A stretch of DNA of 63,135 nt from Thermoplasmata archaeon (GTDB taxonomy: Archaea; Thermoplasmatota; Thermoplasmata; Thermoplasmatales; GCA-001856825), in the NCBI GenBank assembly GCA_021817415.1, contig JAKAUZ010000015.1, positions 1 to 63,135 of the forward strand, read 5' to 3'. Below the pieces are notes generated by a model. The model was not told the DNA's origin, searched no databases, and saw nothing but the letters and a program-made list of their open reading frames with translations. The position numbers and the translations under genes are program-made. Shown here piece by piece: positions 9,581 through 28,680 of this stretch (its first letter is position 1; each line of letters starts with the position of its first letter).

Positions 9581-10525
9581 TCAATATTCCACGATGAACT
9601 GGCTGAATATTTCCCCGAATTTATCTCCGTCAACTATTGTCTTCCCATACCTTTCTATCTCTTCCCTTGAAGGTGGGCCATCTAAATAGCCTGGTAGTTT
9701 CTCACCGAGTCTTTCCTCAAAAGTTGGGATTAGGGTGTTTTCATAGAACACTCCCAGAGGTATCTTATCATCTAGCTCGAACGATTTTGCGATAGCCTGC
9801 ATAATCTTTTCTTGAGCCTCATTTTCGTCATTTACTGTGGGATTCCAATCATCAGTCTTCAACTCATAGACTCTCTTGTTGTAGTAGTCGTATGTGTGGA
9901 TGTCGTCAAAAGTGACACAAGGCTGAAGTATGTCAATAAAAGCAGATCCTTTATGCCTTACCGCCTGCTTTATCGTTTCCTTCAGATGATTTATTCTTGA
10001 AGAATAGCTCCTTGCAACGAAGGTGTATCCTGACGTCACCGCGAGCGCAATTGGGTTCACTGAATCCTGAATATTGGGTTCGTTGAGTGCCTTTGGTTTC
10101 TCCCCTCTATGCAGCGTCGGTGCGGCTTGACCCTTGGTAAGAGCGTAGACTGTATTATCGTGCATCATCACGACCAAGTCAATGTTTCTCCTTCCAAGTG
10201 CCACAAAATGGCCAAGTCCAATCCCTAGGAGATCGCCGTCTCCGGCGTTCACAAGCACATTGAGAGAAGGATTGGAAAGCTTTATGCCTTGCGCGAATGG
10301 AAGGGGCCTTCCGTGAAGCGTATGGACGCCGGTGGTGTTGACGAAGTGAGCTGTTTTACCGGAGCATCCTATTCCTGAAATTACCACTGTCTCCGCTGGA
10401 TCTGTTTTCATTTCAGCCAGTGCCTGGTACATGGCAGCCACTATCCCAAAATTCCCACAGCCTGGACACCAGTCATTCCATACATCTGTCCTGTAATTAG
10501 CGGCAGTCAATTCTCTAGGCTCCAA
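9581..10525 (-). CDS. 2-oxoacid:ferredoxin oxidoreductase, beta subunit
   Basis: A 314-residue protein with the family's WCPGCGNFG motif near residue 18 (cluster-binding cysteines), ISGIGCSGK, and the thiamine-diphosphate motif GDGD (about residue 95) through [10 protein letters not shown]. With the alpha/gamma subunit it oxidatively decarboxylates pyruvate, 2-oxoglutarate or related acids to acyl-CoA, reducing ferredoxin. It overlaps the alpha gene by 11 bases and is the last gene of a three-gene operon; the likely electron acceptor, zinc ferredoxin, is encoded nearby at 14460-14891. The exact oxoacid cannot be read from the sequence. Confidence 0.93.
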
Positions 10526-12407
10526 GATTCAACACCTCCTTCGAGGATCCAGAAAGTACCCTCCTAATTGCTTCGACAAGTTCGCTTAGGTAGATTGGCC
10601 TGCCAGTAAATTTGACTACATGTTTTCTTAACTCGTGGCCAGTATTCAATCGTACCAAAATGCCTGCTTGGCCCTCATAGTTGCACTCAACATCTACGAC
10701 GTTTTCGGGACCGACATCCTCGAAGATGCTCTCGACAGACTTTTTCGGAAATGGAACGAAAGTCCTGATATGGAAATAAGATGCTTTTATTCCTTCGTTC
10801 CGGAGCTGTTCCAGTGCTTTTATCGCAACTCCCTTGACGAACCCCCATCCCAGCAGGACGATTTCAGGATCTTTATCTCCGTAAAGCGCGTGTCTCCTTT
10901 CTTCAGGTATACTTTCTTCTATCAAATTCATCTTGTCCATCCTCTTCGTCATCATCTTTATCCTGTTCTCCGAATCTTCGTCGATGTGTCCATTCTCATT
11001 ATGCTCATCTCCCGTATACCACATTCTTTCATCGCCGATGAACGCCCTCGGAGAAATTGACGAAGTAAAGTCAAATCTCTGGTATCCATCGCCTCCATTT
11101 TTCACCAAGTTCCCTCTTCGCACCTCTATCTTCGATACATCCGGCAGAGGGATTGAGGCAATCGAGTTTGCTAGGAACTTGTCCACCAGATGGATAACTG
11201 GTGTTTGAAACATTTCAGCGTAATTCAGCGCATCAACGGTGTCCCAGAACGCCTCTGAATGGTCCCCTGATGAAAGAACGATTCTTGGAAACTCACCATG
11301 GGATGCAAAGACCGAAGATAGTAGATCACTTTGGCCCCCCCTTGTAGGTTGGCCCGTGCTGGGTCCCCCTCGTTGATAATAGGTGACCAAAATGGGTGTC
11401 TCATTTATTCCAGCCCACCCAAGTCCTTCTGTCATTAGGTCAAATCCTGGGCCGCTCGTTGCACTTGCACTCCTTGTGCCTGTCAGGGAAGCCCCGATTG
11501 CGGAGGTAACAGCGGCAATCTCATCCTCTGTCTGGAACACCACAATTGAGCCACGATCGCCTCCAACCTTCTCATATTTTTCCAGAGTAAAGCTTTCGTC
11601 TGCTGCAGGAGTTATGGGATAGTAGGACTGGAATCTAACTCCTCCCATAAGTTTCGCCATTGCAACGAAATCATTTCCACTGGCGACCACCATTTTTCCA
11701 CGGCTCAAACTGCTCTTTCCAAGACTAGGACGTTTATATGAGAACGCCTGAAGCTGTCTCGCTATTATTTCTGAAAAAATCATGTTGTGTTTCAGAATTT
11801 CACCTGATCTGAATCTCTTTTTAAGCCCAAAAGCAAGACTGGAACTTTCCAGTCCAACCAACGACGCTATCGAGCCGATCAGGATGCTGCTAACATACCT
11901 GGAAGCCTGGGCAGCAATTACGCTGGCTTCCTGCTGAAGCGCTCTTAGAAGTGAACTATAACTTAATGCGACAACGTTAATCTGTCTCCTTTCACTCAGG
12001 TAAGTTGACAACTCCCCAAGCGTTCCCCCGATGCCGTTGGCTTTAAAGAATTCATTCAATCTCGTTTTCAATTCAGGTTCCATGCTCAGTATTGAACCGT
12101 ACTTTGCGTTATCCTCATCTTTGTTGTAGATGAGATATCCTCCCCTATCTATCTCCTGAAAATGCGTGAAGACTGTCTCAGCATCCATTGCACCCACGAG
12201 ATCGACCGGATATGACAGATGAAATGGGTTTTCAGCGCCTGAAACGGTCGCATGAACGTAGCTGTGCCTTCCCTTGATGTTAGAGAAATATTCCCTATCA
12301 GACAATATCCCGTAGCCTGATTTCGCAAAGGACCATGATAGGACTTCTGAGGTTGTTTCAAGTCCTCCACCCTGTGGCCCTCCCAGGATATAACGCAATT
12401 CCCCCAC
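10515..12407 (-). CDS. 2-oxoacid:ferredoxin oxidoreductase, fused gamma-alpha subunit
   Basis: A 630-residue protein. Residues 1 to about 200 form the gamma (catalytic-domain) part starting [22 protein letters not shown]; residues about 240-630 are the alpha part with [31 protein letters not shown] and [16 protein letters not shown]. This gamma-alpha fusion with a separate beta is the Sulfolobus/Thermoplasma arrangement of the two-subunit enzyme. Its start directly follows the stop of the Cys-rich gene (12408), and its end overlaps the beta gene, so the three are one operon. Confidence 0.93.
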
Positions 12408-14951: not shown

Positions 14952-15274
14952 TTTGTTGGCTTCAAATATTACCCAATCTCTACGAAACTACTCCATTTTT
15001 GAGCGACCTGATTTATGATTAATTTGGTAAATTTCGCCTAGATGTAACATGGCAAAATCCTATTGAATGCATCAGACCTGATCTCCGTCGAGCTGCGTTA
15101 ATTTTTAAAGATTTTGGTTTTAAATGGTCGATCACCCTCGACTAGGATATTTCAGTTGTTAAAGGTCCGATTAGTCCCTAACTGACATTTTCTTATATGG
15201 TGAGCTTGGAAAACACTAAACTGATAGGGGTCAACTCTAAATATTCTCTCTCCATTTAATGCTCGCTGATAGTT
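14952..15274. other. Intergenic with promoter for the hemerythrin gene
   Basis: No gene seen. CTAAATATTC at about 15236-15245 may be the TATA box for ATG 15275. The island palindrome is absent here; only one half (TCCCTAACTG, near 15173) is present. Confidence 0.35.
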
Positions 15275-16089: not shown

Positions 16090-16338
16090 TTATTTAGAGA
16101 GAGGAACAAAATTGCCATAACGGTCTACTTCCCATTGTCCAGTAGGCAGTATTCTGTTGCAACAATTGCATATTACAAACCTTCCGGGATGTTGCCTAAT
16201 GTGCAAATCAAGCTTGATTCTATCAGGGAACCAGGCACCACAAAAACGCTTAAACTCATGATGGTGAGAAGGCTCAGCTGGTAGAAGGGGAGCTGAGATT
16301 AAAACCGTGCTGCTCATCTGTATCCCCTTCCATACCAA
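16090..16338 (-). CDS. Small Cys/His-containing protein, unknown
   Basis: An 82-residue frame starting at ATG 16338, two bases after the stop of the DUF1059 gene; an internal ATG at 16317 (MSSTVLISAP), preceded by GGGGA, may be the true start. The C-terminal half reads like a real protein: HHHEFKRFCGAWFPDRI, LHIRQHPGRFVICNCCNRILP and WEVDRYGNFVPL, with cysteines (CNCC) able to bind metal. It matches no family I know. Its position makes it the second gene of a palindrome-controlled operon. Confidence 0.55.
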   Translation of the reverse strand: MVWKGIQMSSTVLISAPLLPAEPSHHHEFKRFCGAWFPDRIKLDLHIRQHPGRFVICNCCNRILPTGQWEVDRYGNFVPLSK

Positions 16339-16566: not shown

Positions 16567-16582
16567 CCCGAATTGTTTAGGG
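16567..16582 (-). promoter_or_regulatory. Island palindrome, DUF1059 promoter
   Basis: CCCGAATTGTTTAGGG, fitting CCCTAA-N4-TTAGGG with one base changed. Centre is 54.5 bases from ATG 16520 but only about 17 from the TATA-like box, so the promoter geometry is kept and the mRNA has a short leader with a GGTGA site. Confidence 0.65.
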
Positions 16583-16814
16583 GATGTCAAGAAGGTCACT
16601 TTAATTTTCTTGAACCAATCAGTTACAGTTCAACACCGGTGAATTAAAGAATTCGCTCGGCTATTACCAGAAATTGACGCTGATTTTTATTCCGGTTCAA
16701 AAGAGATCAAAATATTTCCTTTCTTGCAGGATTAGTGAGATGGAGGGAGGCTCATTTGATACCGGGCGGGTTGAAATTATACTTCACCTTCCTAATTAAC
16801 ATTAAATAAATAAT

Positions 16815-19037
16815 TTATGATGAATCCTCCTGCGGTCTCACCCCCTTTCGGAAGGTAAATAAGATGCCTAAACCAATGATAGCGAATCCAGCCATTGCAG
16901 TAACATCCCCGATCATTCTTAACCAGATTAAATCCCCAACTAAAGCAAGATGCCAGAATGGTGTAACTCCAGGGACAAGAGGTGACAGAGACTTCACGTA
17001 CCAGAATCCATATTTCAATTCAAACTCATATTGAAGTACGCCCAGTGGAAGGAGAGATAACAATGTCTGCAGAGAGAATCCGATTCCGTAGAGAACGGCC
17101 CCCCATCTCATATACTTCAGTTGACCATCCTTTAAGCCACCTGTCAGGTATGCTATCACCACCCACATCATAATTGATGGAAGGCCATAGGCCAGAGGAA
17201 ATGCCAGGTGTGCGTGTGCCATTACAACCTGCGTATCATGGAGGTAATAGTTCAAGAGGGGCATGTTCAGTAATCCGCCTCCAAAGGCTGCAGCACCAAT
17301 CCCTCCTCCAATTGCAGAAACTATCGTGAATATTAGAATAGTTTTCTGGAATTCGGTCTTGGCGTCAGTCTCTCTTCTAACCCACAACAATATGGCATAA
17401 ACTACCGCGAATCCTATTGCTATTGCCTCAAGAATTCCGACAATTGAACCTATGTATAGCCACACCTGCGGCTGGCCACCCCAGTAGTAATGGTGCGCCG
17501 TCCCTATCATTCCGGACACTATATCCGCAGTTGCATCCAGACCTATCAGGGCAGTCCCAAGTCTTACTGGGAAAAGTCCTGCTATAATGAGAAGCGTTAC
17601 TATTATCGTGACAATGATTGCAGGCCAGAAACCCTCTACGAAGGCATGTATCATGATCCACCTGAAGTATTCATCAACGGTGTAATTACCCCAGGGGTGG
17701 AATACAGGGAGTGCTCCCATCACGATCCCAAATCCGGTACCTGCCAGGGAAATACCAAGAACTTGGGTGAGAGGCCTGAGGTTTGGAATGGTTATCTTGG
17801 AGGCTTTAAAGAATAAGTAAGACATGTAGAAGACGAGCACTGCAATTACCAAAAGCCAGACAGTCCCTTGCGTTACAACATTCCTTCCCTGACCCCCAAA
17901 CATGAACCAGGGATCAAAGAAACCGTTATTGTAAGGTATGATCTGGAGATAATTTAGCATTATACCAAGGGCAGTCAGGAAACCGACACTAATGGTAGCA
18001 AGCATTACTCCCCAGGTCTGTCTCCTTGATAATTTCAAGCCAAAATAAGGTAAAACGAATAGAGAAAATACTACCCATGTTGCAACGATCCAGAGGACTG
18101 CAAGCGTGTAGTGCTCCGCATTGCCTATGTTAAAGGGTAGAATATTCAGAAGATTGATTCCGTAAAAAGTTGGGCTTGCGTAGAGATGGAAGATGTACTC
18201 ACCGAGCAGTCCCTGTACCGCAGCGGTAAGTCCTATTATAACCACGCCATACAAAGTCAACCTCTGAGTTTTCGTTGGTTTTGGAAGGGGAACAGGTTCT
18301 CTCGGATCATTCCAATACGACAGAAGCTTCATAAATACATAAGCGGCGAAAGGTAAAATACCGATGATGAACGCAAATGTCATAAGATCGGAAGAGACAA
18401 AAACATTTGAGTTAGGATGAAGAACCCCATTTGTGAATGGGTATCCGTTCGTATATCCCAGAAGAGATATCAAGGCAGTCCAGGTAAAGAATGCTGTCAG
18501 GTCAGTAACCACTGTCTTATTCGTAATGTAGTCTGGGATCAACCTGTTCTGTTCAGAGTTTTTCCCCAAATAGTTTTGATAGTAAGAGACGCTGTAGTTG
18601 AATGCACCCATGAATAAAGGTGAGACCGTCATTGTTTTTGAAGCTGAATTGAACGCTACGTGGAGGTAAGGTGATATGCTTTCGGCTTGTGATGTGTTGT
18701 TGGGATAGAATGGTTGTATGCCTAACCGTTCAGCTATGTAATTTTCATCTAACTGGATGGTGTATGATGTAAAATCAATACCAAAATAGCCTCCGAATCC
18801 TAGTACTGATCCGTAATCCGCAAGACCATATTTCTGATAAAGATACTTTCCGGAAGTTATTTCGTTCGAGGTAAAGATGGTCTGTCCATCTGATGTGACA
18901 ACTTTGTCTGGAACAGGGGGTAGATTTGAAAAGGTGTAGAAAGACATTGCAATCCAGATAACGTAAACTACCACGGTAGAGATGGCAACGATCATTGGCC
19001 ATTTGCTCTTCTTGCCTTTATAAATTTCAGCGGTCAC
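16815..19037 (-). CDS. norZ: Quinol-dependent nitric oxide reductase (qNOR)
   Basis: A 740-residue membrane enzyme reducing two NO to N2O with quinol electrons. The N-terminal extension (one helix near 13-33, an extracytoplasmic part to about 175) is typical of qNOR. Expected ligands are visible: His309 in GNAEHYTLAVLW and His610 for low-spin haem b, His608 (AHAHLAF) for haem b3, His464 (MIHAFVEGFW), His515 and His516 (GTAHHYYWGG) for non-haem iron, and Glu468. Start is GTG 19037, about 25 bases after a TTTTATTTAGG box, so leaderless. A variant of the island palindrome lies 43.5 bases upstream. Confidence 0.95.
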   Translation of the reverse strand: MTAEIYKGKKSKWPMIVAISTVVVYVIWIAMSFYTFSNLPPVPDKVVTSDGQTIFTSNEITSGKYLYQKYGLADYGSVLGFGGYFGIDFTSYTIQLDENYIAERLGIQPFYPNNTSQAESISPYLHVAFNSASKTMTVSPLFMGAFNYSVSYYQNYLGKNSEQNRLIPDYITNKTVVTDLTAFFTWTALISLLGYTNGYPFTNGVLHPNSNVFVSSDLMTFAFIIGILPFAAYVFMKLLSYWNDPREPVPLPKPTKTQRLTLYGVVIIGLTAAVQGLLGEYIFHLYASPTFYGINLLNILPFNIGNAEHYTLAVLWIVATWVVFSLFVLPYFGLKLSRRQTWGVMLATISVGFLTALGIMLNYLQIIPYNNGFFDPWFMFGGQGRNVVTQGTVWLLVIAVLVFYMSYLFFKASKITIPNLRPLTQVLGISLAGTGFGIVMGALPVFHPWGNYTVDEYFRWIMIHAFVEGFWPAIIVTIIVTLLIIAGLFPVRLGTALIGLDATADIVSGMIGTAHHYYWGGQPQVWLYIGSIVGILEAIAIGFAVVYAILLWVRRETDAKTEFQKTILIFTIVSAIGGGIGAAAFGGGLLNMPLLNYYLHDTQVVMAHAHLAFPLAYGLPSIMMWVVIAYLTGGLKDGQLKYMRWGAVLYGIGFSLQTLLSLLPLGVLQYEFELKYGFWYVKSLSPLVPGVTPFWHLALVGDLIWLRMIGDVTAMAGFAIIGLGILFTFRKGVRPQEDSS

Positions 19038-19073
19038 AATTGCAAAATGTACAGCCTAAATAAAAGGATGATA

Positions 19074-19087
19074 GCTAAAATATTAGC
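19074..19087 (-). promoter_or_regulatory. Variant island palindrome, norZ promoter
   Basis: GCTAAAATATTAGC, perfect five-base arms and a four-base spacer. It keeps the CTAA/TTAG core of the consensus but replaces outer C/G pairs with G/C. Its centre is 43.5 bases from the norZ GTG and about 18 from its TATA box, the same geometry as the other sites. It sits immediately beyond the stop of the regulator gene. Confidence 0.5.
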
Positions 19088-19702
19088 CTAAACTTTTCCC
19101 ATCATATGAGCATCTACTATTTTTTTGAGTGCCCTCCTCATTATAAGGTCTGCAGTCGCGGGTTTAATCGAAAATTTTTTAGCGATAGATGTCAGCGACG
19201 TCTTTCTTTTAACGTCAAAATACCCGTTTACAAGGGCGAAAAGGACTATTTCAGATTGTCTCGGAGTAAGACCAGACAACGTGGCATAGGGTATTTCTTC
19301 AAGGACGTTAAATTCAATTCCTTCAGTCTCAAATTCTTTCAGAATTCTTTTTAAGGAGTTTTTGTCGCTCAGGAGTCTATAGATCACAGTATCTTTACCC
19401 TGGGACCTTGCTGAAAGCACAACCGAATTGAGTTTCGCAAGAATCCTGCAGGAATCGCAGCTGGCTGAAAGGGCCAGTATCTTGTCTCTCCTTAAGGCAG
19501 ACACTTTGACTCCCTCTTGCCTGAGGGCAGCTGTGACATCCTTGTGATTCTGCCCTAGCTCTAGTAGATGGGACGACTCCTCTACTCCTATATTTAATTT
19601 TACTAGATTCGGGCTGAGCTTTAACCTTGAAATCACGTTGGTCACCATACAATTATCCCTTTTTACAGAGATGTCCACCTCTATCAGGCGTGCGGCTGAC
19701 AT
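19088..19702 (-). CDS. HTH_10 (Bat-type) regulator with CxxC, next to norZ
   Basis: A 204-residue protein. The N-terminal part (1-140) is an alpha/beta region containing SASCDSCRILAKL (Cys82, Cys85; also Cys18). The C-terminus (about 148-200) is the bacterio-opsin-activator HTH: LTPRQSEIVLFALVNGYFD followed by TSLTSIAKKFSIKPATADLIMRRA. It lies 50 bases upstream of norZ on the same strand. Haloarchaeal NarO, which controls denitrification genes, has the same HTH and a Cys-rich sensor, so this may sense NO or redox state through a metal at CxxC. It resembles the regulator at 28048-28680. Confidence 0.82.
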   Translation of the reverse strand: MSAARLIEVDISVKRDNCMVTNVISRLKLSPNLVKLNIGVEESSHLLELGQNHKDVTAALRQEGVKVSALRRDKILALSASCDSCRILAKLNSVVLSARSQGKDTVIYRLLSDKNSLKRILKEFETEGIEFNVLEEIPYATLSGLTPRQSEIVLFALVNGYFDVKRKTSLTSIAKKFSIKPATADLIMRRALKKIVDAHMMGKV

Positions 19703-19824
19703 TGAATTAACATCGGGATTAACTATTTCTGCATTTCCAGATTTAGATACTGTTGCAGATGCTACTTCAAGTTAAAAAATCTTGAAAGGAAAGGTTAATC
19801 CGGCCGTCGACATTGGGAATACAA

Positions 19825-20262
19825 GTGAGTGAACAAGACATCGAAGGGTATATGACAGAAGACCACTGGGAGGTCAATGAACAAATAAAGTCCCTGTTTT
19901 CTGGAGATGACAAACTCCAGTCCAAGCTACGGGATGAAATATTCCCGAGGCTTAGAAGACACATTTTCATCGAGGAAATTGCATTATTTCCGACATTGCC
20001 AGAGAGCGCAAAAGAAGAGGTGGAATACCTGGAAAAAGAACATGGTATGATTCTAGCTACGGTAAATCAGGCAATGAATTCCAAGAACTACAAAATCAGG
20101 AAAGAAAAGCTGCTGGATCTCTATGACCTATTAGTGGAGCACAACTCGTACGAAGAATCATTTATCTACGGTCATTTCCACGGGAAGGATGCCTCCACCA
20201 TCAGGAGCATAGGATTTCCTTCCCGTGAATGGAAGTCGCTCTATGAACGGACTTTTCCATGA
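19825..20262 (+). CDS. Hemerythrin-like (HHE domain) protein 2
   Basis: A protein of 145 residues with HHE diiron motifs: TEDHWEVNEQI near residue 14, LRRHIFIEEIALFPTL near 46, KEHGMILATV near 74 and LVEHNSYEESFIYGHFH near 108. I chose GTG 19825, which has GGGA six bases upstream, over the in-frame TTG at 19813. It is divergent from the HTH_10 regulator and has no clear copy of the island palindrome. Probable role: NO/O2 binding or iron-centre repair. Confidence 0.8.
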   Translation: MSEQDIEGYMTEDHWEVNEQIKSLFSGDDKLQSKLRDEIFPRLRRHIFIEEIALFPTLPESAKEEVEYLEKEHGMILATVNQAMNSKNYKIRKEKLLDLYDLLVEHNSYEESFIYGHFHGKDASTIRSIGFPSREWKSLYERTFP

Positions 20263-20382
20263 TTCCTGACCCCGAGAATTCTGGATTGGCGAACTTCTCT
20301 CCTCCATTCCTGCTTCAGGAGAAAGAGAAGCAATTTTATGAGGAAACTGTACCTCGGTTTAGGAGTTCTAAATCCCATATTT

Positions 20383-21015
20383 TTATGCACACTCCCCTCT
20401 GCTGATCTTAGCCTGGACCTCCTTGTGGTCCTCGTCTTTAGGTGCAGGCGACACGACGTGAATTGCCTCCATGTCGGTTCTGGCAACAATCCCTCTCCTT
20501 TTTCCTCTAGGAACTATGAGAATGCTGCCTGGCTCCAACTGAAACTCTTGGTCTCCCCCAGTTGCTGTCCCCGTCCCCTTGATGACAGCAAATATTAGAT
20601 CTACCTGAGGTGAATGAACTGGAATGCACTGACCGCCCTTAATATAAGTTAGAATGACCTTGTAGCTATCCCCCGAATATACACCAACTGGGCTAAACAT
20701 ATCATCCAAATAATGTCTTTCCGAATCCATACTTGTAAACTTAACACCGTCATGCAGCTCTGCAACTTGGCCCTTGACCAATATACTCTCATATGCTCCA
20801 TCCTCCCGCTCTTTTGAAGAATATGCTGATTCATCAATTGGGATGCCGTTATGCTTAATCTCTGCGATAAGATGTATTGGCTCACGGTCTGAAATTATCA
20901 GAATCTCTTCTCCTGGGTTTAATCCCTTGAATATTTCGACCACCTTATTATGCCTCTCAGTTGGTGTAGTTTCCCTGACATCAATTATCAGCTGCTTCCG
21001 ATTTTGGTGTTCCAT
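20383..21015 (-). CDS. DUF2249-cupin fusion protein
   Basis: A 210-residue protein. Residues about 8-80 match DUF2249 (LIIDVRETTPTERHNKVVEIFKGLNPGEEILIISDREP), a domain usually found with hemerythrins or NO-related proteins. Residues about 110-195 form a cupin barrel (GGQCIPVHSPQVDLIFAVIKGTG, LEPGSILIVPRGKRRG), with His in IPVHSPQVD as possible metal ligand. The ATG at 21015 is at the predicted transcription start: TATA-like ATTTAAAT is about 25 bases and the palindrome 42.5 bases upstream. Likely cytoplasmic metal-binding or NO-related protein; exact activity unknown. Confidence 0.82.
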   Translation of the reverse strand: MEHQNRKQLIIDVRETTPTERHNKVVEIFKGLNPGEEILIISDREPIHLIAEIKHNGIPIDESAYSSKEREDGAYESILVKGQVAELHDGVKFTSMDSERHYLDDMFSPVGVYSGDSYKVILTYIKGGQCIPVHSPQVDLIFAVIKGTGTATGGDQEFQLEPGSILIVPRGKRRGIVARTDMEAIHVVSPAPKDEDHKEVQAKISRGECA

Positions 21016-21049
21016 AAGGTGTTACACTCGGAAATAATTTAAATGCGTT

Positions 21050-21065
21050 CCCTTAATTATTAGGG
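21050..21065 (-). promoter_or_regulatory. Island palindrome, DUF2249-cupin promoter
   Basis: CCCTTAATTATTAGGG, within a longer symmetric TTCCC...GGGAA (21048-21067). Centre is 42.5 bases from ATG 21015 and about 17 from the TATA-like ATTTAAAT. Confidence 0.7.
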
Positions 21066-21142
21066 AATAGAATAATTATGAAACCCACAGACTAGCAGGC
21101 AGGAGAAGATAACGAAAGACGGAATGCTGGAACAGTCTATTT

Positions 21143-22300
21143 CTAGTAAGCAGGCGTTGGTGCGGGGGACGGTGAGATGATCCTCCTGAGATTGAAAACA
21201 AATGCAAGTATTGCAATTATCAAGACGTATCCGGATAGATATGAGACAAAATTCAGAATATAGCCAGAACCGAAGCCTAAGTCTCCATACACTCTCATCG
21301 TGGTCGCTATTGTAATGATTAGAATGGGTGAAAACGTTACCCTATCCTGAACGGCGTTCTTTTTCAACGTCATCGGGAATATTATCGGACTATGTGCTAT
21401 AATGAAAGTGCCAATAAATCCAAGAGCGATAGAATGTGTTGCTGCATCTAATATGTCCTCAGAGGTGGTTAATTGAAATGCAAAGAGTGCTATGCCAATG
21501 AATAACCAAGAATAAGCAACTATTACACCAGTCCTCAGATAAGTTTGAAACTTCCCCCTTCTGGGACTACTGTGAAACGATGGATCGAATCTCAGAGCCG
21601 TCAGAATCATGAGGAGGAGAATAATTATCGACGAGCCCATTATTAAGCTCCGGCCAAAATATTGAGGATATTCCACAGAAGCAAAAGCGGTTAGCACGAT
21701 GATCCAAGAGAGCGCTGCCTGGAGTCCTATAACTTTCCTGCCCATTCCACGAATAAATCCAAGCTCGACTCTTTCAGCTACTATGTATATGATGGGGAAT
21801 AGTAAGGCCAGATACGTAAGCTGGATGTTCATCCAGATCGTAGAGCTCATATTTGCAATTGCGGTAAGGGCGATAGCAGCAACAGACGCACCAAACATCC
21901 ACCGTATCCCGGCTACACTATGGCCCATTTTACTGGTCAGAAAGTGGAGAAAAAGAATAGAAGATATGATGACGAATATTAGTCCGATATCAACTAGAAC
22001 AGGATTGTTCATTAAGTATCCCGTAGAAACAATTACAGTACCGGAAAAGAGGAAAAAGATGATTGGCCTGGAAATTTTGAACGTGTTCAAGAACTTGAAC
22101 TTCTCCATGCTTTCTAGCTTTTCAGTGATAAGAAGACCTCCTATGACTCCAAAGATCATGATATCCGGGTGGAACAATATATCATCCGCCAGAGAGGAGC
22201 TGGCCTCATAACCAGAAGAGAGTGCTAGAGAAGAGAGTCCGATCAAAATGCCAATGACGAGTGACAGTGCTGAAAAAACCAGCCCTATATAAACAATCAA
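21143..22300 (-). CDS. NnrS-like polytopic membrane protein
   Basis: A 385-residue protein with about twelve hydrophobic segments. Features recalling NnrS (a haem/copper membrane protein protecting against NO stress) are FHPDIMIFGVIGGLLI near residue 43, a central FPIIYIVAERVELG and DAATHSIALGFIGTFIIAHSPIIFP near 290, with the conserved histidines. The start is a TTG at 22300 preceded by AAAGGAC; no other start lies between it and an upstream stop. The leader is about 47 bases, since the TATA-like GATTAAATG is near 22372. Function in NO tolerance is inferred from family likeness and neighbours. Confidence 0.7.
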   Translation of the reverse strand: MIVYIGLVFSALSLVIGILIGLSSLALSSGYEASSSLADDILFHPDIMIFGVIGGLLITEKLESMEKFKFLNTFKISRPIIFFLFSGTVIVSTGYLMNNPVLVDIGLIFVIISSILFLHFLTSKMGHSVAGIRWMFGASVAAIALTAIANMSSTIWMNIQLTYLALLFPIIYIVAERVELGFIRGMGRKVIGLQAALSWIIVLTAFASVEYPQYFGRSLIMGSSIIILLLMILTALRFDPSFHSSPRRGKFQTYLRTGVIVAYSWLFIGIALFAFQLTTSEDILDAATHSIALGFIGTFIIAHSPIIFPMTLKKNAVQDRVTFSPILIITIATTMRVYGDLGFGSGYILNFVSYLSGYVLIIAILAFVFNLRRIISPSPAPTPAY

Positions 22301-22381
22301 GTGAGGTCCTTTATCGAATTCCTTTAAGGTGCGGTTGTTTGCTGACGTGACTGTTTATCCGGAAGTACATTTAATCCTAAC

Positions 22382-22397
22382 CCCTAAGATATTAGGA
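22382..22397 (-). promoter_or_regulatory. Island palindrome, NnrS-like promoter
   Basis: CCCTAAGATATTAGGA. Centre is about 17 bases upstream of the TATA-like GATTAAATG (near 22372), as in the other sites, although the gene itself starts farther downstream because of a leader. Confidence 0.65.
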
Positions 22398-22451
22398 CGA
22401 TTCGGATTACCTCCCGTCCCTCGGCAGCATTAATGTGGGAAGATGATATAA

Positions 22452-22862
22452 TCAGGCCAGCCTGGTGGACGAAAGATCTATCAAATGGATAAGTGTCGCA
22501 ATTACCAGAAGAGTGAGACCTGATATGACAAGGTAAATTTCTGAGAACCCATTTAATCCAATAAAGGTGGCTATAGTACCCGTATTCAGTGAAATGATTT
22601 CGGATACGATCAACGAGTGCCTGAATTCTTTCTTGTTGCCATAGGAAGGCATCATTATATTGGTAATGCCGAATACCATTGAACCAACAAATCCAAACAG
22701 CCATAAAATGTAGATGGCATCCCTGTTTAGAGTTACAAAGGGTAGAAAGCTAATGATCATTGCAATCAGTCCAGCGAGAAGATACAGAAAAGCCTCTGTG
22801 GTGAATACAAGGTTCAGTTTAATATATCCGCCGCTCAGATTAGGTGACCTGCTAGCGCTCAT
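22452..22862 (-). CDS. Short NorB/cbb3-like four-helix membrane protein
   Basis: A 136-residue protein with four helices. The motif LWLFGFVGSMVFGITNIMMPSYGNKKEF resembles helices of NorB/CcoN or NnrS-type proteins, but it is too short to be an enzyme alone and its characteristic His residues are few. It lies 151 bases upstream of the NnrS-like gene, same strand, with its own palindrome and TATA box (AGTTTAAAAT). It might be a small partner of NorZ or of the NnrS-like protein (inference). Confidence 0.7.
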   Translation of the reverse strand: MSASRSPNLSGGYIKLNLVFTTEAFLYLLAGLIAMIISFLPFVTLNRDAIYILWLFGFVGSMVFGITNIMMPSYGNKKEFRHSLIVSEIISLNTGTIATFIGLNGFSEIYLVISGLTLLVIATLIHLIDLSSTRLA

Positions 22863-22903
22863 AGAACTGTGGTCTCAATTATCATCGAATATTTTAAACT
22901 CGT

Positions 22904-22919
22904 CCCTAAAACCTTAGGA
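22904..22919 (-). promoter_or_regulatory. Island palindrome, promoter of 136-residue membrane gene
   Basis: CCCTAAAACCTTAGGA, centre 49.5 bases from ATG 22862 and about 16.5 from the TATA-like AGTTTAAAAT. Lies 34 bases from the next palindrome, which serves the divergent hemerythrin gene. Confidence 0.7.
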
Positions 22920-22953
22920 ATGTGGGATGAACTGCATTTCAATTGTCCTGAGT

Positions 22954-22969
22954 CCCTTAAGGAATAGGG
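22954..22969 (+). promoter_or_regulatory. Island palindrome, hemerythrin 3 promoter
   Basis: CCCTTAAGGAATAGGG, centre 42.5 bases from ATG 23004 and about 18 from the TATA-like TAATAAAGG (22976-22984). One site per direction serves this divergent promoter region. Confidence 0.7.
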
Positions 22970-23003
22970 ATTAGGTAATAAAGGCGAAACCTCATCGCAA
23001 TAT

Positions 23004-23477
23004 ATGAAACCAAGAGTTTTGCCTTTAAAAGACCTTATGGTTGAATTGGAGGAGGAGCATGATGCTATATCCAGTGCAGTCAGCCAGGCGGAAAATGAAG
23101 TTGAAAAGTCAAATTACCAAAATGGTGCTGAAATTTCTAGGAAAGTGGTTGATTTGCTTTCACAACATACGATAGACGAGCAAAGCTCCCTTTTAGGATA
23201 TCTCATAAAGAAGCTCGGAAGGGATAGGTCTAAAAGGGACATAGAAATTATGAGGGTTCAGACACAGATAATGAATCTTGCAAAGAAGATATCTAAAACA
23301 TTTGCGCAAGGCGGGAGAGCAGAAGCGGCTGACATAAAGAATCTAAGATTTTTGCTTATGAAGCAATTCATGCATGAGAAAGCATTATTCGAGCAGGCTT
23401 CCTCTTTTATTGATACCGAATTAAAGGAAGAGTATTTCCAGGAAGTTGACAGATATGTCAATGAAGGTGGGAAGTGA
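23004..23477 (+). CDS. Hemerythrin-like (HHE domain) protein 3
   Basis: A 157-residue helical protein with the expected pattern: LEEEHDAISSAVSQAE near residue 14, LLSQHTIDEQSSLLGYLI near 52 (H...E), and FLLMKQFMHEKALFEQAS near 118-128 (H...E). The third and second motifs are weaker than in the other three HHE proteins. The ATG at 23004 coincides with the predicted transcription start (TATA centre 25 bases upstream), and the island palindrome is 42.5 bases upstream. Likely an NO/O2-binding or iron-repair protein under NO control. Confidence 0.78.
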   Translation: MKPRVLPLKDLMVELEEEHDAISSAVSQAENEVEKSNYQNGAEISRKVVDLLSQHTIDEQSSLLGYLIKKLGRDRSKRDIEIMRVQTQIMNLAKKISKTFAQGGRAEAADIKNLRFLLMKQFMHEKALFEQASSFIDTELKEEYFQEVDRYVNEGGK

Positions 23478-23686
23478 GAGAGAGCAACGCAATATCTTTT
23501 TCAAATTATTATTCTTTAATTCTTTTTATATGGTTTGAAGTCACTGGTTCAATATCCGCTTCGCTATGAAGGAAAGGTCAATTCCTACGTGCTCTGCTTA
23601 GGCAATTGATTAAACATATTGAAATATCTTTAATCGCAACGATTCGATTTTTCTACTTTGGAAAATGAAAGGAAAAACAGAATTAA

Positions 23687-25378
23687 TCATTGCTTACTGG
23701 TGTCAGTTTCAGGTTCGTAGTCTATCCATTCCCTCATGCTTGCAATCAGGTACCCTTTTGCCTGTTCAAAGGTTAAAAACGGTGGCATTGGTTTCAAGTT
23801 TGGATCAGTGATTGCCTCTAGAAGGAACGGTCCTTTACTTTCTAACATGGTACTCACTCCGTTCCTGATTTCCTTGCTGTCTCTTATCGTCAGTGAATCT
23901 ATTTCGTAAGCTCTTGCAAGAAGGGAAAAATCGGGATTCACAAGGTCGACACCCCACTCAGGATAACCCATAACCTCCTGCTCATATTTTATCATAGCAA
24001 GCTTGCTGTTGTTGAATACAACAATCTTCATTGGGAGATTATATTTCTTGACCGTCGAGAGCTCCATTGCAGTCATTGCCAGTCCTCCATCTCCCACAGC
24101 TGATATGACCTGCCTTCCTGTGGACAATGACACTCCTACTGCGCCAGGCAACGCACACCCCATTGACGCCAGTGCGCCGGAAAAGAGGAATCTTTGCCCA
24201 GCAGACGCTCCGAAATGCCTTGCAATCCAGACAGTTGTATTGCCGGTATCTGTGACTATTACAGCATCCTTATCGGCATACTCAGAGAGTGCTCTCGAAA
24301 GAAGGGCTGGATTGGTTGTTCTGGTTTCCCTCTCCTCGATTTTCCTCAGTTCATTCCTCCAGGCATTCATTGATCTTTCGAACTCAAGGTAATACTTGCT
24401 TTCCTTTTCTTGCACTGAATTAATCACCGAATTCAGGAAATGATGAGCGTCCGAATTGATTGGCACATCAACTGGCAACTCATTCCCGAGATTACCAGGA
24501 TCGGTGTCGACCTGAATCATCTTGATATCACGAGGAATGAACTTCCGATAGGGAAAGGTCGATCCTATCTCTATGATAAGGTCTGACCCATTGATTGCCT
24601 CCACAGACGGACGGGAGCCTAGGAGGCCAAGTCCACCAAACACCTGCTTGGAATCGTCTGAAAATATGCCCTTACCAAGCAGTGCATATATGATAGGTGC
24701 TCCAATTCTCTCTGAAAATGTCTCCAAGCTCTCCCTCTCACTAAGAGCCCCCCTTCCTATCAATAAAACAGGGTGTCTGCTGCTGTTGATTAATTTTAAA
24801 GCGGCACTCATATCGTAAGCTATGGTTCCTGAGACTATTTCAGTATTCACAATTCTTGGCAGTTCCACCTTCTTCATCAAAATGTTTACCGGAAAGTTGA
24901 GATGAGATACTCCTCTCAACCTTTTGGCTTCCCTTATTGCCTTGGAGATAAGATTCGGGGCAGTTAAAGGATCAATGACCATCTTATTGAAAACTGCTAC
25001 GTCATCGAAGAGTTTTACCAGGTTCACTTCCTGATGATAATCCTCCCCATAGAGATCGCTGCTAACCTGTCCGGTAATGGCTATGACTGGGACCTTGTCA
25101 GTCTTTGCATCGTACAATCCATTGATCAAATGAATCGACCCTGGTCCAGATGTCCCGAAGCATGCGGCAAGGTTTCCGTTGAACTTGGCATCGAAGGAAG
25201 CTGCGAAAGCCCCTCCCTCTTCGTGACGGACCTGTATATATTTTAGGGATTGACTTCTGCGAACTGTTTCAACAAATGGATCAATTGAGTCTCCGGGCAC
25301 CCCATATGCTCTCTTTACCCCTCCCATTAACAGAAAATCAACCAGTATATCTGCTACTGTCTTTCTCATGAACATCAC
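23687..25378 (-). CDS. Pyruvate oxidase-like thiamine-diphosphate enzyme
   Basis: A 563-residue TPP/FAD-type enzyme of the POX/acetolactate synthase family. Residues 1-170 carry the pyrimidine-binding domain (VRHEEGGAFAAS, Glu near 54; GTSGPGSIHLINGLYDAKTDKVPVIAITGQ; YHQEVNLVKLFDDVAVFN), then a central FAD-type domain, then the pyrophosphate domain with GDGGLAMTAMELSTVKKYN...FNNSKLAMI. Phrases such as GLYDAK and the FQEV-like segment favour pyruvate oxidase over acetolactate synthase. Electrons could go to quinone (PoxB type) or O2. Under island-palindrome control, it may supply electrons for NorZ (inference). Weak TATA suggests activator dependence. Confidence 0.8.
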   Translation of the reverse strand: MMFMRKTVADILVDFLLMGGVKRAYGVPGDSIDPFVETVRRSQSLKYIQVRHEEGGAFAASFDAKFNGNLAACFGTSGPGSIHLINGLYDAKTDKVPVIAITGQVSSDLYGEDYHQEVNLVKLFDDVAVFNKMVIDPLTAPNLISKAIREAKRLRGVSHLNFPVNILMKKVELPRIVNTEIVSGTIAYDMSAALKLINSSRHPVLLIGRGALSERESLETFSERIGAPIIYALLGKGIFSDDSKQVFGGLGLLGSRPSVEAINGSDLIIEIGSTFPYRKFIPRDIKMIQVDTDPGNLGNELPVDVPINSDAHHFLNSVINSVQEKESKYYLEFERSMNAWRNELRKIEERETRTTNPALLSRALSEYADKDAVIVTDTGNTTVWIARHFGASAGQRFLFSGALASMGCALPGAVGVSLSTGRQVISAVGDGGLAMTAMELSTVKKYNLPMKIVVFNNSKLAMIKYEQEVMGYPEWGVDLVNPDFSLLARAYEIDSLTIRDSKEIRNGVSTMLESKGPFLLEAITDPNLKPMPPFLTFEQAKGYLIASMREWIDYEPETDTSKQ

Positions 25379-25413
25379 GTGTCATTAAGTAAGTCAGAGT
25401 GTACATCCATAAT

Positions 25414-25429
25414 CCCTACACTGTTAGGG
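25414..25429 (-). promoter_or_regulatory. Island palindrome, pyruvate oxidase promoter
   Basis: CCCTACACTGTTAGGG, centre 43.5 bases from the ATG at 25378. The TATA region behind it is poor (ATTATGGATG), fitting dependence on an activator. Confidence 0.68.
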
Positions 25430-25578
25430 TTCAATCCCAAAGAAATGAAATCCATGATTTTTTGACAAAGGCTTTCTAACAATGTCTGCTAACATTTTTT
25501 AAAAGTTCTTTTTCAATTTACAAATATGATTTATTGACGATATACTATCGGGAATACTAAGATGAGGAGAGGAATTCG

Positions 25579-26028
25579 ATGAGAATAGATTATGAGAGAC
25601 TTGAACCAAATGCAGTGAAAGCAATACTTGGTTTGAAGGAATTTGTGAGGACAACAGGCCTAGATGAATCGCTTATCGGCTTGATTGAAATCAGATCTTC
25701 CCAGATAAATGGATGCGCTTACTGTCTGGACATGCATACTCAGGACGCAACCGCAATGGGGGAAAAGGAACAGCGCATTTTCTGCATTAGCGCGTGGAGA
25801 GATGCACCCTTCTTTTCAGATAGGGAAAAGGTGGCTCTGGAGTTCACCGAAGCAGTTACAAGAATATCTGAAAATGGAGTTGATGATGATCTCTACAACA
25901 GGGTTAGGACTCATTTCAATGAACGGGAATTCATCGGTTTGGTGATGGCAATAAATACAATAAACTGCTGGAACAGGATTTCAATATCGTGTGGGCTGAC
26001 CGCCGGAATGTATAAGCGGAGTCCTTAA
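25579..26028 (+). CDS. AhpD-like alkylhydroperoxidase (carboxymuconolactone decarboxylase family)
   Basis: A 149-residue helical protein with the AhpD signature: SSQINGCAYCLDMHTQDA, giving a CxxC (Cys46, Cys49) and His53. Such proteins reduce peroxides or act as disulfide carriers. The upstream region (25431-25578) has a GAGGAG ribosome site but no palindrome; the closest one belongs to the divergent gene. It may defend against oxidants arising with NO, or against H2O2 if the neighbouring oxidase makes it (inference). Confidence 0.85.
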   Translation: MRIDYERLEPNAVKAILGLKEFVRTTGLDESLIGLIEIRSSQINGCAYCLDMHTQDATAMGEKEQRIFCISAWRDAPFFSDREKVALEFTEAVTRISENGVDDDLYNRVRTHFNEREFIGLVMAINTINCWNRISISCGLTAGMYKRSP

Positions 26029-26067
26029 ACTGAGGATGCACGTTAGAATATTCAACTGGGAACAATT

Positions 26068-27399
26068 TCAGGTCGAATCCACAAATATGCCCTTGTGAAA
26101 TAATGAGAACGTCCAGTCAGTTAGCACCTCGAATTTATTCCTGATAGTAGATATCCTCCAAAGATGAATGAAGCGCCAAAGGAACCACGCCGTGAATCCT
26201 GTTAGTATAACTCCATTGGAGAATTTGCAGATCCCTGTGAATCTTCCGGCGGACAGAAATGTCCCATGATCGTGATACCTGAATCTTGTCCCTAAATTTT
26301 TCCCGTTAAATTCTTCCGCAAGTCTCACTCCTAGGTACTTTCCCTCCTGGACAGCGGCAGCGGCAGTTTGCGGTGGAGGCGACTCACCTTCCCCCAAGAA
26401 TGGCAAGGCAGAGTCCCCGATTGCATAGACCTCAGCTAATGATGCAACTCTCAGGCGATTGTCAACTGCAAGCCTGTCTCCATTTCTTTCATTTAGTTTC
26501 CTCTTTAGCGAGGAAACAACGGAGCTTGTCTTGATTCCAGCAGTCCAGAAAACATTCCTTGTCTGTATATGATTTCCATCAGATAATATCACTTCAGACT
26601 CCGCAACTTCTATCACTTTTTTGCCAAGTAATAACTCTACCCCTTTTCTCTTCAGTATATTAGCCAGTTTTTCGGAAAACTCTCCGCCGATACCGCTCAT
26701 CAGTTTATCATTGGCCTCTATCAGGACGATCCGTGGAATCAAACTTCTTACCCTGTGATTTCTGTTCAGATCGTCTACGAATTCCAGAAGGGACGTAGAG
26801 AGCTCGACACCCGTAGCACCCCCACCAATTATCACAAATGTTAGGAGAGAACCCACGCTACTACCACTGTTAATCCTTGAGACTGCTTCTTTGTAAGATT
26901 CTAGTACCCTATTCCTTGCCTTCTCACCGTCTTTTATGCTCTTAAGCGGTAGGCTGTGTTCCTTGACCCCAGGTATACCGAAGTCATTACTTTCAGAGCC
27001 CAGTGCAATTATAAGACGGTCGTAATGAACGGTGCCCTTTGTAGTTACAACCTCATTCCTCTCTGGAATTATTTCGGTAGTATCAGCCTCAATGAACCTA
27101 TAACCAAAGTCTTCAATCGTGCAACAGATGGGTGATGAAACATGGTACCCATAGACCTTTCCAGTGGCAACTTCATACAAAAGCGGAGAAAACATCATGT
27201 AGTTTCTAGAATTTATCGCGATAAGTTCAATCGCTTTCTTGGAGTCCTTCTTTATTCTCCTATTAAATGCAGTTATGAAAGAAGAACCAGCAAAGCCGGT
27301 CCCAAGTACAACAATACTAAGTTTCCCTTCTCTTCTCTCCCTCCCGGCCTCTGTGCAATCAACTGAATCATTTTGTGTTTCCCTAATGGAAATTGACAT
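26068..27399 (-). CDS. Type II NADH dehydrogenase (NDH-2-like)
   Basis: A 443-residue flavoprotein with an FAD fold LSIVVLGTGFAGSSFITAF (about residue 28), NAD-binding FVIIGGGATGVELSTSLLEF near 150, and VYAIGDSALPF near 310, as in NDH-2 enzymes that oxidise NADH and reduce quinone. A hydrophobic C-terminal stretch (GVILTGFTAWFLWRFIHL) fits membrane attachment. ATG 27399 (MSISIRETQ) is preferred to 27417: TATA-like AAGTATTTTGAA is about 25 bases and the palindrome exactly 42.5 bases upstream. Could feed quinol to NorZ. Confidence 0.88.
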   Translation of the reverse strand: MSISIRETQNDSVDCTEAGRERREGKLSIVVLGTGFAGSSFITAFNRRIKKDSKKAIELIAINSRNYMMFSPLLYEVATGKVYGYHVSSPICCTIEDFGYRFIEADTTEIIPERNEVVTTKGTVHYDRLIIALGSESNDFGIPGVKEHSLPLKSIKDGEKARNRVLESYKEAVSRINSGSSVGSLLTFVIIGGGATGVELSTSLLEFVDDLNRNHRVRSLIPRIVLIEANDKLMSGIGGEFSEKLANILKRKGVELLLGKKVIEVAESEVILSDGNHIQTRNVFWTAGIKTSSVVSSLKRKLNERNGDRLAVDNRLRVASLAEVYAIGDSALPFLGEGESPPPQTAAAAVQEGKYLGVRLAEEFNGKNLGTRFRYHDHGTFLSAGRFTGICKFSNGVILTGFTAWFLWRFIHLWRISTIRNKFEVLTDWTFSLFHKGIFVDST

Positions 27400-27433
27400 A
27401 GAGCATAATTGAACCATTCAAAATACTTCTAAT

Positions 27434-27449
27434 CCCGAAAAGGATAGGG
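27434..27449 (-). promoter_or_regulatory. Island palindrome, NDH-2 promoter
   Basis: CCCGAAAAGGATAGGG, centre 42.5 bases from ATG 27399 and about 16 from the TATA-like box. Part of a divergent pair with 27490-27505. Confidence 0.68.
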
Positions 27450-27489
27450 ATAGCTTCCTGACCGCTTGATATCAACTGCCAAATCCTAT

Positions 27490-27505
27490 CCCTTAGCATT
27501 TTGGG
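27490..27505 (+). promoter_or_regulatory. Island palindrome, hemerythrin 4 promoter
   Basis: CCCTTAGCATTTTGGG, centre 42.5 bases from ATG 27540. The TATA region is weak. The two palindromes of this divergent region are 56 bases apart, one per promoter. Confidence 0.65.
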
Positions 27506-27539: not shown

Positions 27540-28004
27540 ATGGTTCATCAAAGCAGTATACTGGACAAAGAGCATGCCGAATTACTTGAGCAACTTGAGG
27601 ATGCTTCTTTGAAGAATAACGGGGTATCGGAACTATTCAAGGAAATGCATTCAAAGTTCCTGGTACATCTAGCGAAGGAAAATGAGACCATACTTCCCCT
27701 TTTATCATACGTCAAGGCGGTCTCAGATGGAAAGGTCATCGGTGAGGATCAGAATTACATAAACGCTGGAGAGAAATTCAGAAAAGATTATGATAAAATG
27801 GTCTCGGAGCATAGAAAAATGCGGGATCTGATTGGAAAGGTTGAGGAGAAGTTGAAAGTTCATCCAAATGCTCAGCTATCAAGGCTTGTCGGTTTTTTAT
27901 TGGAACATATTGAGCTCGAAGAAGAATTCCTTTATCCTTCGGCGAGGATGGCGGCAAAGACAATTAGACTTGAACACGAACTCAAGGGTATGGCAGTTAG
28001 ATAA
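27540..28004 (+). CDS. Hemerythrin-like (HHE domain) protein 4
   Basis: A 154-residue helical protein with the clearest diiron pattern of the four: LDKEHAELLEQLE near residue 11, HSKFLVHLAKENETILPLL near 38-50, VSEHRKMRDLIG near 86 and LLEHIELEEEFLYPSA near 122-135. ATG 27540 is at the predicted start of transcription. It is divergent from the NDH-2 gene and has its own palindrome. Likely binds NO or O2 at a diiron centre or assists Fe-S repair. Confidence 0.85.
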   Translation: MVHQSSILDKEHAELLEQLEDASLKNNGVSELFKEMHSKFLVHLAKENETILPLLSYVKAVSDGKVIGEDQNYINAGEKFRKDYDKMVSEHRKMRDLIGKVEEKLKVHPNAQLSRLVGFLLEHIELEEEFLYPSARMAAKTIRLEHELKGMAVR

Positions 28005-28047: not shown

Positions 28048-28680
28048 TTAGCTCTCTTTCTTCTTGAAATAGGAAGAAATGATGTTCTTTTCTGCCCTCC
28101 TGAGTATCTCTGCAAGAGTGACGTAGGATACATTTAGCCTCTTGGAAAGCCCTTCCAGATTGATTTTCTTTGGATATTCAAAAAAACCCAACTCAAGTGC
28201 AGTCTTTACCACAAATTCCTGTCTAGCTGTTATATCCCCTTTCTTGCTAAGGCGACTCTTCTTGAGAAGTTCAAATTTCACTCCATCTTCCTCCAGCCTA
28301 TGCAGAAAGGAAGAGACCGTTTTCTCATCCGGGACAAGCCATTGCATTGTCATGTTTCCTGCTTCGTCCGATCGTGCTTGAGTCAGGAACAGATCCCACT
28401 TGTGGATCTCCCTGCAGATTGCACACTCATCAGCGTTGACAATAGCAGTCGCATGATAATCATCCATTATTTTCAGATGTTCCTCGCTTGAAGGTTTGCT
28501 CATGTTGAGATCATTTGAAAGACCTTCTACCTGACCTTCAGGCGAAAAAATTTCAACCAGATCTTTGACTCCCTCAGAGCTTGCTCTGATATCTCTAATC
28601 CTAATTTCAGCGGAATGAGTTTGAACAAGATTTCTTATCCATTCCACAGGCGTTTTGAATCTTAACTCGAGTTCTATCAC
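28048..28680 (-). CDS. HTH_10 (Bat-type) regulator with CxxC, island right end
   Basis: A 210-residue paralogue of 19088-19702. The sensor region carries NADECAICREIHKWD (Cys86, Cys89), at about the same place as Cys82/Cys85 in the other. The C-terminus has the HTH_10: ITARQEFVVKTALELGFFEYP followed by INLEGLSKRLNVSYVTLAEILRRA. CxxC plus nearby His suggests metal, haem or Fe-S sensing. No palindrome lies upstream, so it is not obviously self-regulated. Together with the other protein it is the best candidate to bind the island palindrome. Confidence 0.82.
   Translation of the reverse strand: MIELELRFKTPVEWIRNLVQTHSAEIRIRDIRASSEGVKDLVEIFSPEGQVEGLSNDLNMSKPSSEEHLKIMDDYHATAIVNADECAICREIHKWDLFLTQARSDEAGNMTMQWLVPDEKTVSSFLHRLEEDGVKFELLKKSRLSKKGDITARQEFVVKTALELGFFEYPKKINLEGLSKRLNVSYVTLAEILRRAEKNIISSYFKKKES

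Follow-up and report, generated by a model that had tools for sequence, protein, structure and literature searches.

A conserved palindrome and a candidate HTH_10 regulator mark a probable regulon in the Thermoplasmatales

Introduction

Denitrification genes of Haloferax mediterranei are preceded by the motif CGAAYATDKTYG, eight copies of which lie in a 12.5-kb cluster that also contains nirK, nor, DUF2249 genes and a gene for a bacterioopsin activator (PMC10062603, PMC11218638). Mutation of this motif reduced the activity of the nos and nor promoters (PMC10062603). In bacteria, nnrS and COG4309 are members of the NO regulons of NsrR, NnrR and DNR, which also use palindromic operators (PMC1274295). 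These bacterial systems depend on Rrf2 and CRP/FNR regulators, unrelated operators and bacterial promoters, whereas both regulator genes of the archaeal cluster described here have Pfam matches to HTH_10 only, and not to Rrf2 or CRP/FNR. For archaeal HTH_10 regulators, operators are known for few. NarO of Haloferax volcanii and DmsR are small regulators with an HTH_10-type DNA-binding domain, no PAS or GAF domains and cysteines in the sensor part. The regulator HTHa discussed below shares these features, but its targets differ.

The window analyzed here is a stretch of 63,135 nucleotides of contig JAKAUZ010000015.1 from a Thermoplasmata archaeon, for which an initial annotation had proposed a new palindromic operator, CCCTAA-N4-TTAGGG, that defines an NO-stress regulon. 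No earlier description of this operator or regulon was found in the open literature, outside which most subscription journals lie, and the open literature searched likewise yielded no NO-responsive regulator for Thermoplasmata.

The system is an archaeal HTH_10 arrangement of a kind that is already known, and new here are the extended arms, the different targets and the fixed spacing. As the operator of this regulon the palindrome can be called new, but the motif is not wholly new, since its core, C[T/G]AA-N4-TT[A/C]G, overlaps the haloarchaeal denitrification motif. The latter had been given in the initial annotation as CGAAC-N4-GTTCG, which is inexact; the published motif is CGAAYATDKTYG, which is CGAA-N4-TTCG-like (PMC10062603). 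Both cores are inverted repeats with 4-bp arms and a 4-bp center, and the haloarchaeal CGAA/TTCG arms coincide with CCCGAA...TTCGGG variants seen here, such as CCCGAAACTTTTCGGG at locus L089, while most sites here have CTAA. In contrast to the haloarchaeal motif, the arms are six bases long, have CCC/GGG on the outside and usually T at position 4, and the distance to the start codon is fixed at 42.5-43.5 bp, compared to 66-79 bp in haloarchaea. The core targets are also different: NnrS, hemerythrins and a DUF2249-cupin protein, with TPP and NDH-2 genes as further targets, and none of nar, nirK, nor and nos among them. The common core suggests an old HTH_10 recognition code of which the outer arms have changed.

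Genes and palindromic sites of the locus

The genes of the cluster are listed below; a DUF1059 gene (Pfam) is also part of it.

16815..19037, minus strand: norZ, quinol-type NO reductase of the NorB/COX1 family (PF22085, PF00115)
19088..19702, minus strand: HTHb, HTH_10 regulator of 204 aa (PF04967), candidate norZ regulator; adjoins norZ here and in genome G115
20383..21015, minus strand: DUF2249-cupin protein (PF10006, PF07883), core regulon member
21143..22300, minus strand: NnrS-family membrane protein (PF05940, 33.1 bits against a cutoff of 28)
22452..22862, minus strand: small membrane protein, no Pfam match; orthologues in most regulon clusters
23004..23477, plus strand: hemerythrin-like protein, no Pfam match of its own
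23687..25378, minus strand: TPP enzyme of the pyruvate oxidase or quinone-dependent pyruvate dehydrogenase type (best NCBIfam models, below their cutoffs)
25579..26028, plus strand: CMD/AhpD-family protein, linked in several clusters; without a close site here
26068..27399, minus strand: NDH-2-like pyridine nucleotide-disulphide oxidoreductase (PF07992; NDH2_C below cutoff)
27540..28004, plus strand: hemerythrin (PF01814)
28048..28680, minus strand: HTHa, HTH_10 regulator of 210 aa (PF04967), candidate binder of the eight operators by co-occurrence and synteny

A pattern search of the window found all eight palindromes at the coordinates that the initial annotation had given, and each of the eight cluster promoters has exactly one site. 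The putative operators, and the distinct palindrome of norZ, are as follows, with distances measured from the center of the site:

16567..16582, minus strand: operator CCCTAAACAATTCGGG of the DUF1059 gene (leftward, leadered), 54.5 bp before the ATG
21050..21065, minus strand: operator CCCTAATAATTAAGGG of the DUF2249-cupin gene, 42.5 bp before the ATG
22382..22397, minus strand: operator TCCTAATATCTTAGGG of nnrS (leadered)
22904..22919, minus strand: operator TCCTAAGGTTTTAGGG of the small membrane protein (leadered), 49.5 bp
22954..22969, plus strand: operator CCCTTAAGGAATAGGG of the hemerythrin-like gene 23004, 42.5 bp before the ATG
25414..25429, minus strand: operator CCCTAACAGTGTAGGG of the TPP enzyme gene, 43.5 bp before the GTG
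27434..27449, minus strand: operator CCCTATCCTTTTCGGG of the NDH-2-like gene, 42.5 bp before the ATG at 27399
27490..27505, plus strand: operator CCCTTAGCATTTTGGG of the hemerythrin gene 27540, 42.5 bp before the ATG
19073..19088, minus strand: distinct palindrome GGCTAATATTTTAGCT, probably the operator of the 19088 regulator, 43.5 bp before the norZ GTG

The positions thus stand, while an exact fit to CCCTAA-N4-TTAGGG does not: none of the eight sites is exact, five (16567, 21050, 22382, 22904 and 25414) carry one mismatch and three (22954, 27434 and 27490) carry two. This consensus was rejected in its exact form, and the consensus of the eight sites is CCC[T/G]AA-N4-TT[A/C]GGG.

Conservation in related genomes

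HTHa was searched for in 117 genomes of the order, and 20 neighborhoods were fetched. Close orthologues (58-78% identity) are present in 18 other genomes, next to weaker or broken copies, and the cultured Ferroplasma acidarmanus Fer1 is among the relatives found. In these relatives, the palindrome precedes orthologues of nnrS and of the DUF2249-cupin, hemerythrin, TPP, NDH-2 and DUF1059 genes, so the conservation before orthologous genes on which the initial annotation had made the operator depend is present. In 14 of 14 DUF2249-cupin genes tabulated (13 relatives and the window), the center precedes the start codon by exactly 42.5 bp; the distance is 42.5 or 43.5 bp in all 13 hem27540-type promoters of relatives, with the L093 promoter counted via its lower-scoring site and the ATG that follows. 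An orthologue of the hemerythrin-like gene 23004 has its site 42.5 bp upstream at L208, as in the window, and the DUF1059 orthologue at L085 has it 53.5 bp upstream.

Between genomes, the arms are 77-81% identical, compared to 27-29% for the 30 bp upstream and 36-37% for the DNA down to the ATG. The arms are thus conserved and the flanks are not, which indicates a footprint and not mere relatedness. With permuted matrices, a mean of 2.2 of 26 promoters had a site at 42.5 or 43.5 bp; a single permutation gave 22, presumably through a column order that still fitted the sites, and this control alone is therefore not decisive.

Sites before TPP or hemerythrin genes are also found about 25 kb from HTHa (G043) and on other contigs (G076, G090 and G091). 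These loci are unlinked to HTHa, and the element therefore works in trans. For TPP orthologues of at least 55% identity, a strong site is present in eight of ten genomes with HTHa and in neither of two without it. No site was found at more distant TPP genes (below 55% identity), and the TPP genes of G089 and G090 and the NnrS genes at L094/L095 are without a site of their own. Outside the order, G153, with an HTHa of 38% identity, keeps HTHa, hemerythrin, NnrS and DUF2249-cupin together, and its cupin gene has CCCTGAACTGTTCGGG centered 43.5 bp before the ATG. An altered operator, ACCTAAATATTTAGGC, lies at 42.5 bp before the DUF2249-cupin gene of G104 and may reflect specificity drift.

Proposed regulation and its signal

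The sites, their spacing, their conservation, their distribution in trans and their co-occurrence with HTHa are established computationally, and the palindrome is very probably a real palindromic control switch that defines a regulon. The best explanation as a whole, and a fairly likely one, is that the palindromes are operators of HTHa, which activates from upstream of the BRE/TATA region. At each promoter, an HTHa dimer would occupy a single 16-bp site immediately before this region. The center of the site is followed by a weak TATA-like element after about 17 bp and, in leaderless-type genes, by the start codon after 42.5-43.5 bp. From there the dimer would activate transcription, and the simplest way would be to assist TFB/TBP in loading onto a poor promoter. 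Its N-terminal half, with predicted tandem alpha/beta units and an invariant C-x2-C, may be the sensor, with NO or nitrosative/redox stress as the probable signal. The regulon would supply hemerythrins, NnrS, the DUF2249-cupin protein and the small membrane protein, and in some genomes it would add the pyruvate-oxidase-like TPP enzyme and the NDH-2-like dehydrogenase, which could bypass NO-sensitive Fe-S enzymes. norZ, although a neighbor, would form a separate unit that the paralogue HTHb (19088) controls and that has a palindrome of its own.

The gene content of the cluster gives NO about an even chance of being the main signal. The term "NO-stress regulon" in the initial annotation is supported in its second word, while its first is plausible from NnrS, DUF2249 and the hemerythrins. 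The NO-associated members nnrS (PF05940) and DUF2249 (PF10006) are both present in the cluster, and DUF2249 presumably corresponds to COG4309. The same HTHa-operator regulon could also respond to oxygen limitation or general redox stress, with the hemerythrins and NDH-2 serving oxygen handling or respiration, and this alternative has a substantial, if lesser, chance of being right. Hemerythrins, NDH-2 and pyruvate-oxidase-type enzymes are also oxygen and redox genes, norZ is missing from every HTHa genome except this one, and NarO, the HTH_10 regulator of haloarchaeal denitrification, has been called an oxygen sensor (PMC11218638); the most conserved members, NnrS and DUF2249 (COG4309), are on the other hand hallmarks of bacterial NO regulons (PMC1274295). 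As the operator is precisely described, the regulon is defined, a candidate binder is named and Ferroplasma acidarmanus Fer1 can serve as a cultured host, NO or redox sensing in archaea becomes directly testable.

Promoter geometry and mode of action

The six distances of 42.5-43.5 bp between site center and start codon given in the initial annotation are correct. Three genes have longer leaders: the DUF1059 gene (site at 16567), nnrS (22382) and the gene of the membrane protein (22904). Whether the promoter is leadered or of the leaderless type, an AT-rich TATA-like element lies at +15.5 to +18.5 from the site center, and the same offset that had been noted for the sites with longer leaders is thus confirmed. 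In the leaderless promoters, this strongly A/T-rich stretch precedes the start codon by about 25 bp, as would be expected of a weak TATA element. With the TATA-like element at this offset, the operator ends just upstream of the presumed BRE, at a fixed distance. A position just upstream of the BRE is the usual location of archaeal activator sites. This geometry argues that HTHa probably activates and does not repress; of the activator role proposed earlier, the site placement is observed, and activation itself is inferred from the geometry.

HTHa would act as a repressor if its site blocked the access of TFB/TBP, and since the site abuts the presumed BRE, such occlusion is conceivable. This is nevertheless unlikely: the site stops upstream of the TATA-like element without overlapping it, weak TATA-like elements favor an activated promoter, and the mutated haloarchaeal motif lowers promoter activity at nos and nor (PMC10062603). 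A spacing search over 22 genomes gave roughly 78, 75 and 56 listed rows for gaps of 34, 35 and 28, and the matches outside the clusters are mostly background.

norZ and its own palindrome

Among 399 genomes of the class, close norZ genes are found only in this genome and in G115, and no other genome with HTHa carries norZ. At both norZ loci, a 19088-type HTH_10 gene lies directly upstream. In G115, the palindrome GGCTAGCATACTAGAC (GGCTA...TAG) is centered 43.5 bp ahead of the norZ start codon, as in the window, and G115 has no close HTHa and no DUF2249-cupin gene. These two loci are suggestive of norZ and HTHb being a separate module with a palindrome of its own. The GCTAA-N4-TTAGC repeat reported at 19074 is present, but it is probably not a variant of the CCC operator, as had been assumed, since the palindrome of G115 norZ points to a different operator. 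Membership of norZ in the CCC-operator regulon was rejected in favor of a separate module, on the basis of both norZ loci and the gene content of G115.

It is quite improbable that a single operator family serves HTHa (28048) as well as HTHb (19088) and that norZ belongs to the same regulon. Both palindromes have a CTA...TAG core and the -43.5 position, and the two HTH_10 genes are neighbors here, but the outer arms are not CCC/GGG at either known norZ locus, G115 combines norZ and a 19088-type gene without a close HTHa or a DUF2249-cupin gene, and in relatives with CCC sites the cluster lacks a 19088 orthologue.

More tentatively, HTHa, as a small HTH_10 protein with a C-x2-C, may be the dedicated NO sensor-activator of a Thermoplasmata-wide NO-defense regulon, with HTHb independently controlling norZ via a different palindrome at the same -43.5. 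If true, two orthogonal operator specificities of one regulator family would be present at a single 12-kb locus.

HTHa as the candidate binder

The evidence from sequence makes it likely that HTHa (28048-28680) is the binder of the eight operators. Genomes with HTHa (n=22) have on average 3.41 sites with at most one mismatch, compared to 0.88 in those without it (n=95; Mann-Whitney p 2.5e-8, not corrected for phylogeny, and the relatives in these comparisons are not statistically independent). A full-length DUF2249-cupin gene is present in 16 of 117 genomes, and HTHa in 16 of these 16, with internal stops in the G114 copy. Sites and DUF2249-cupin gene track HTHa as far as a different order (38% identity). 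Both proteins proposed earlier as binders are HTH_10 proteins (PF04967: 67.6 bits for 28048 and 49.5 for 19088, cutoff 23.1); the candidacy of 28048 is strengthened, while that of 19088 is weakened for these sites, as co-occurrence and synteny track HTHa.

The recognition-helix region of HTHa is nearly invariant. HTHa has only two cysteines, C86 and C89 (C-x2-C), both of which are conserved without exception in the alignment of 22 proteins, HTHb among them, and the C-x2-C is present in most other HTH_10 proteins of the order examined. NarO has an N-terminal four-cysteine motif, CXnCXCX7C, which HTHa, with two cysteines, therefore cannot carry. In the AlphaFold2 model of HTHa (pLDDT 75), tandem alpha/beta units precede the HTH. 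A search of solved structures by the HTHa sequence found nothing, and the fold search gave weak matches only, of which Ta1207 (5m86, TM 0.50) was the best meaningful one.

Another, unlinked regulator could bind the sites, with HTHa as a mere neighbor. The promoter of HTHa has no good site in most genomes, and the usual hint of autoregulation is therefore missing; the co-occurrence and synteny of HTHa across genera, including outside the order, and the resemblance of the operator core to the haloarchaeal denitrification-gene motif, which is found with an HTH_10-type gene, make this alternative very unlikely. No strong site is present in the fetched DNA around the HTHa homologues of G106 (L096) and G101 (L097), and in G106 strong sites lie about 11 kb from there, by its cupin and NnrS genes. 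Most of the deep HTHa homologues of the class examined have no recognizable cluster or site nearby.

Several further HTHa-type genes were observed. This genome also has a degraded second 28048-type copy on a different contig (G000:C5:16638-17065; L017, L019), with 50-54% identity and internal stops. In G104, a distance of about 5 kb separates two HTHa paralogues that are both intact (47% and 61-62% identity; L095:6393-7013 and 11567-12187). HTHa homologues with several in-frame stops are found at G101:C1:508741-509313 and G114:C47:1163-1519; in G114, regulon genes and sites persist despite the broken HTHa, which suggests recent decay of the regulator or an assembly error. On a Desulfurococcales contig (L115), an HTH_10 protein at 9322-9708 is 36% identical to HTHa residues 82-210, and the subfamily therefore reaches beyond Thermoplasmata.

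Background of the palindrome

With at most two mismatches to CCCTAA-N4-TTAGGG, the window has 10 matches, compared to 2.49 +/- 1.59 in dinucleotide shuffles, of which 0 in 100 reached 10. Eight of these lie inside the 11-kb cluster; the other two, at 15214 and 39033 with two mismatches each, make the earlier statement that the sites occur nowhere else in the 63 kb nearly right. With a matrix built from the relatives only (window left out), all eight sites are within the top nine scores of the window, where a Markov null expects 0.6 (maximum 3 in 200). That the palindromes are due to chance or composition is thus practically excluded by the shuffles, the cross-species matrix, the fixed spacing and the footprint, even though none of the eight sites is exact.

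The genomic background was taken from pattern searches of the assembly (2.03 Mb, 89% complete), which gave seven matches with at most one mismatch, five of them in the cluster, and 41 with at most two, eight of them in the cluster. The remaining 33 are not above the window-shuffle rate scaled to the genome; the site is not enriched outside the cluster, as the initial annotation had expected. A genome-wide regulon outside the cluster is unsupported in this genome, because these two-mismatch sites are at background and the other two one-mismatch sites (C79:23385 and C84:42836) are not operator-placed.

A possible ninth, weaker site was found close to the cluster:

15214..15229, plus strand: CACTAAACTGATAGGG, two mismatches, 53.5 bp before the hemerythrin gene 15275

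A hemerythrin gene at L085 is likewise preceded by a CACTAAA... site. A cysteine-rich ORF of 82 aa with no Pfam match, at 16090-16338 on the minus strand of the window, lies between hemerythrin gene 15275 and the DUF1059 gene.
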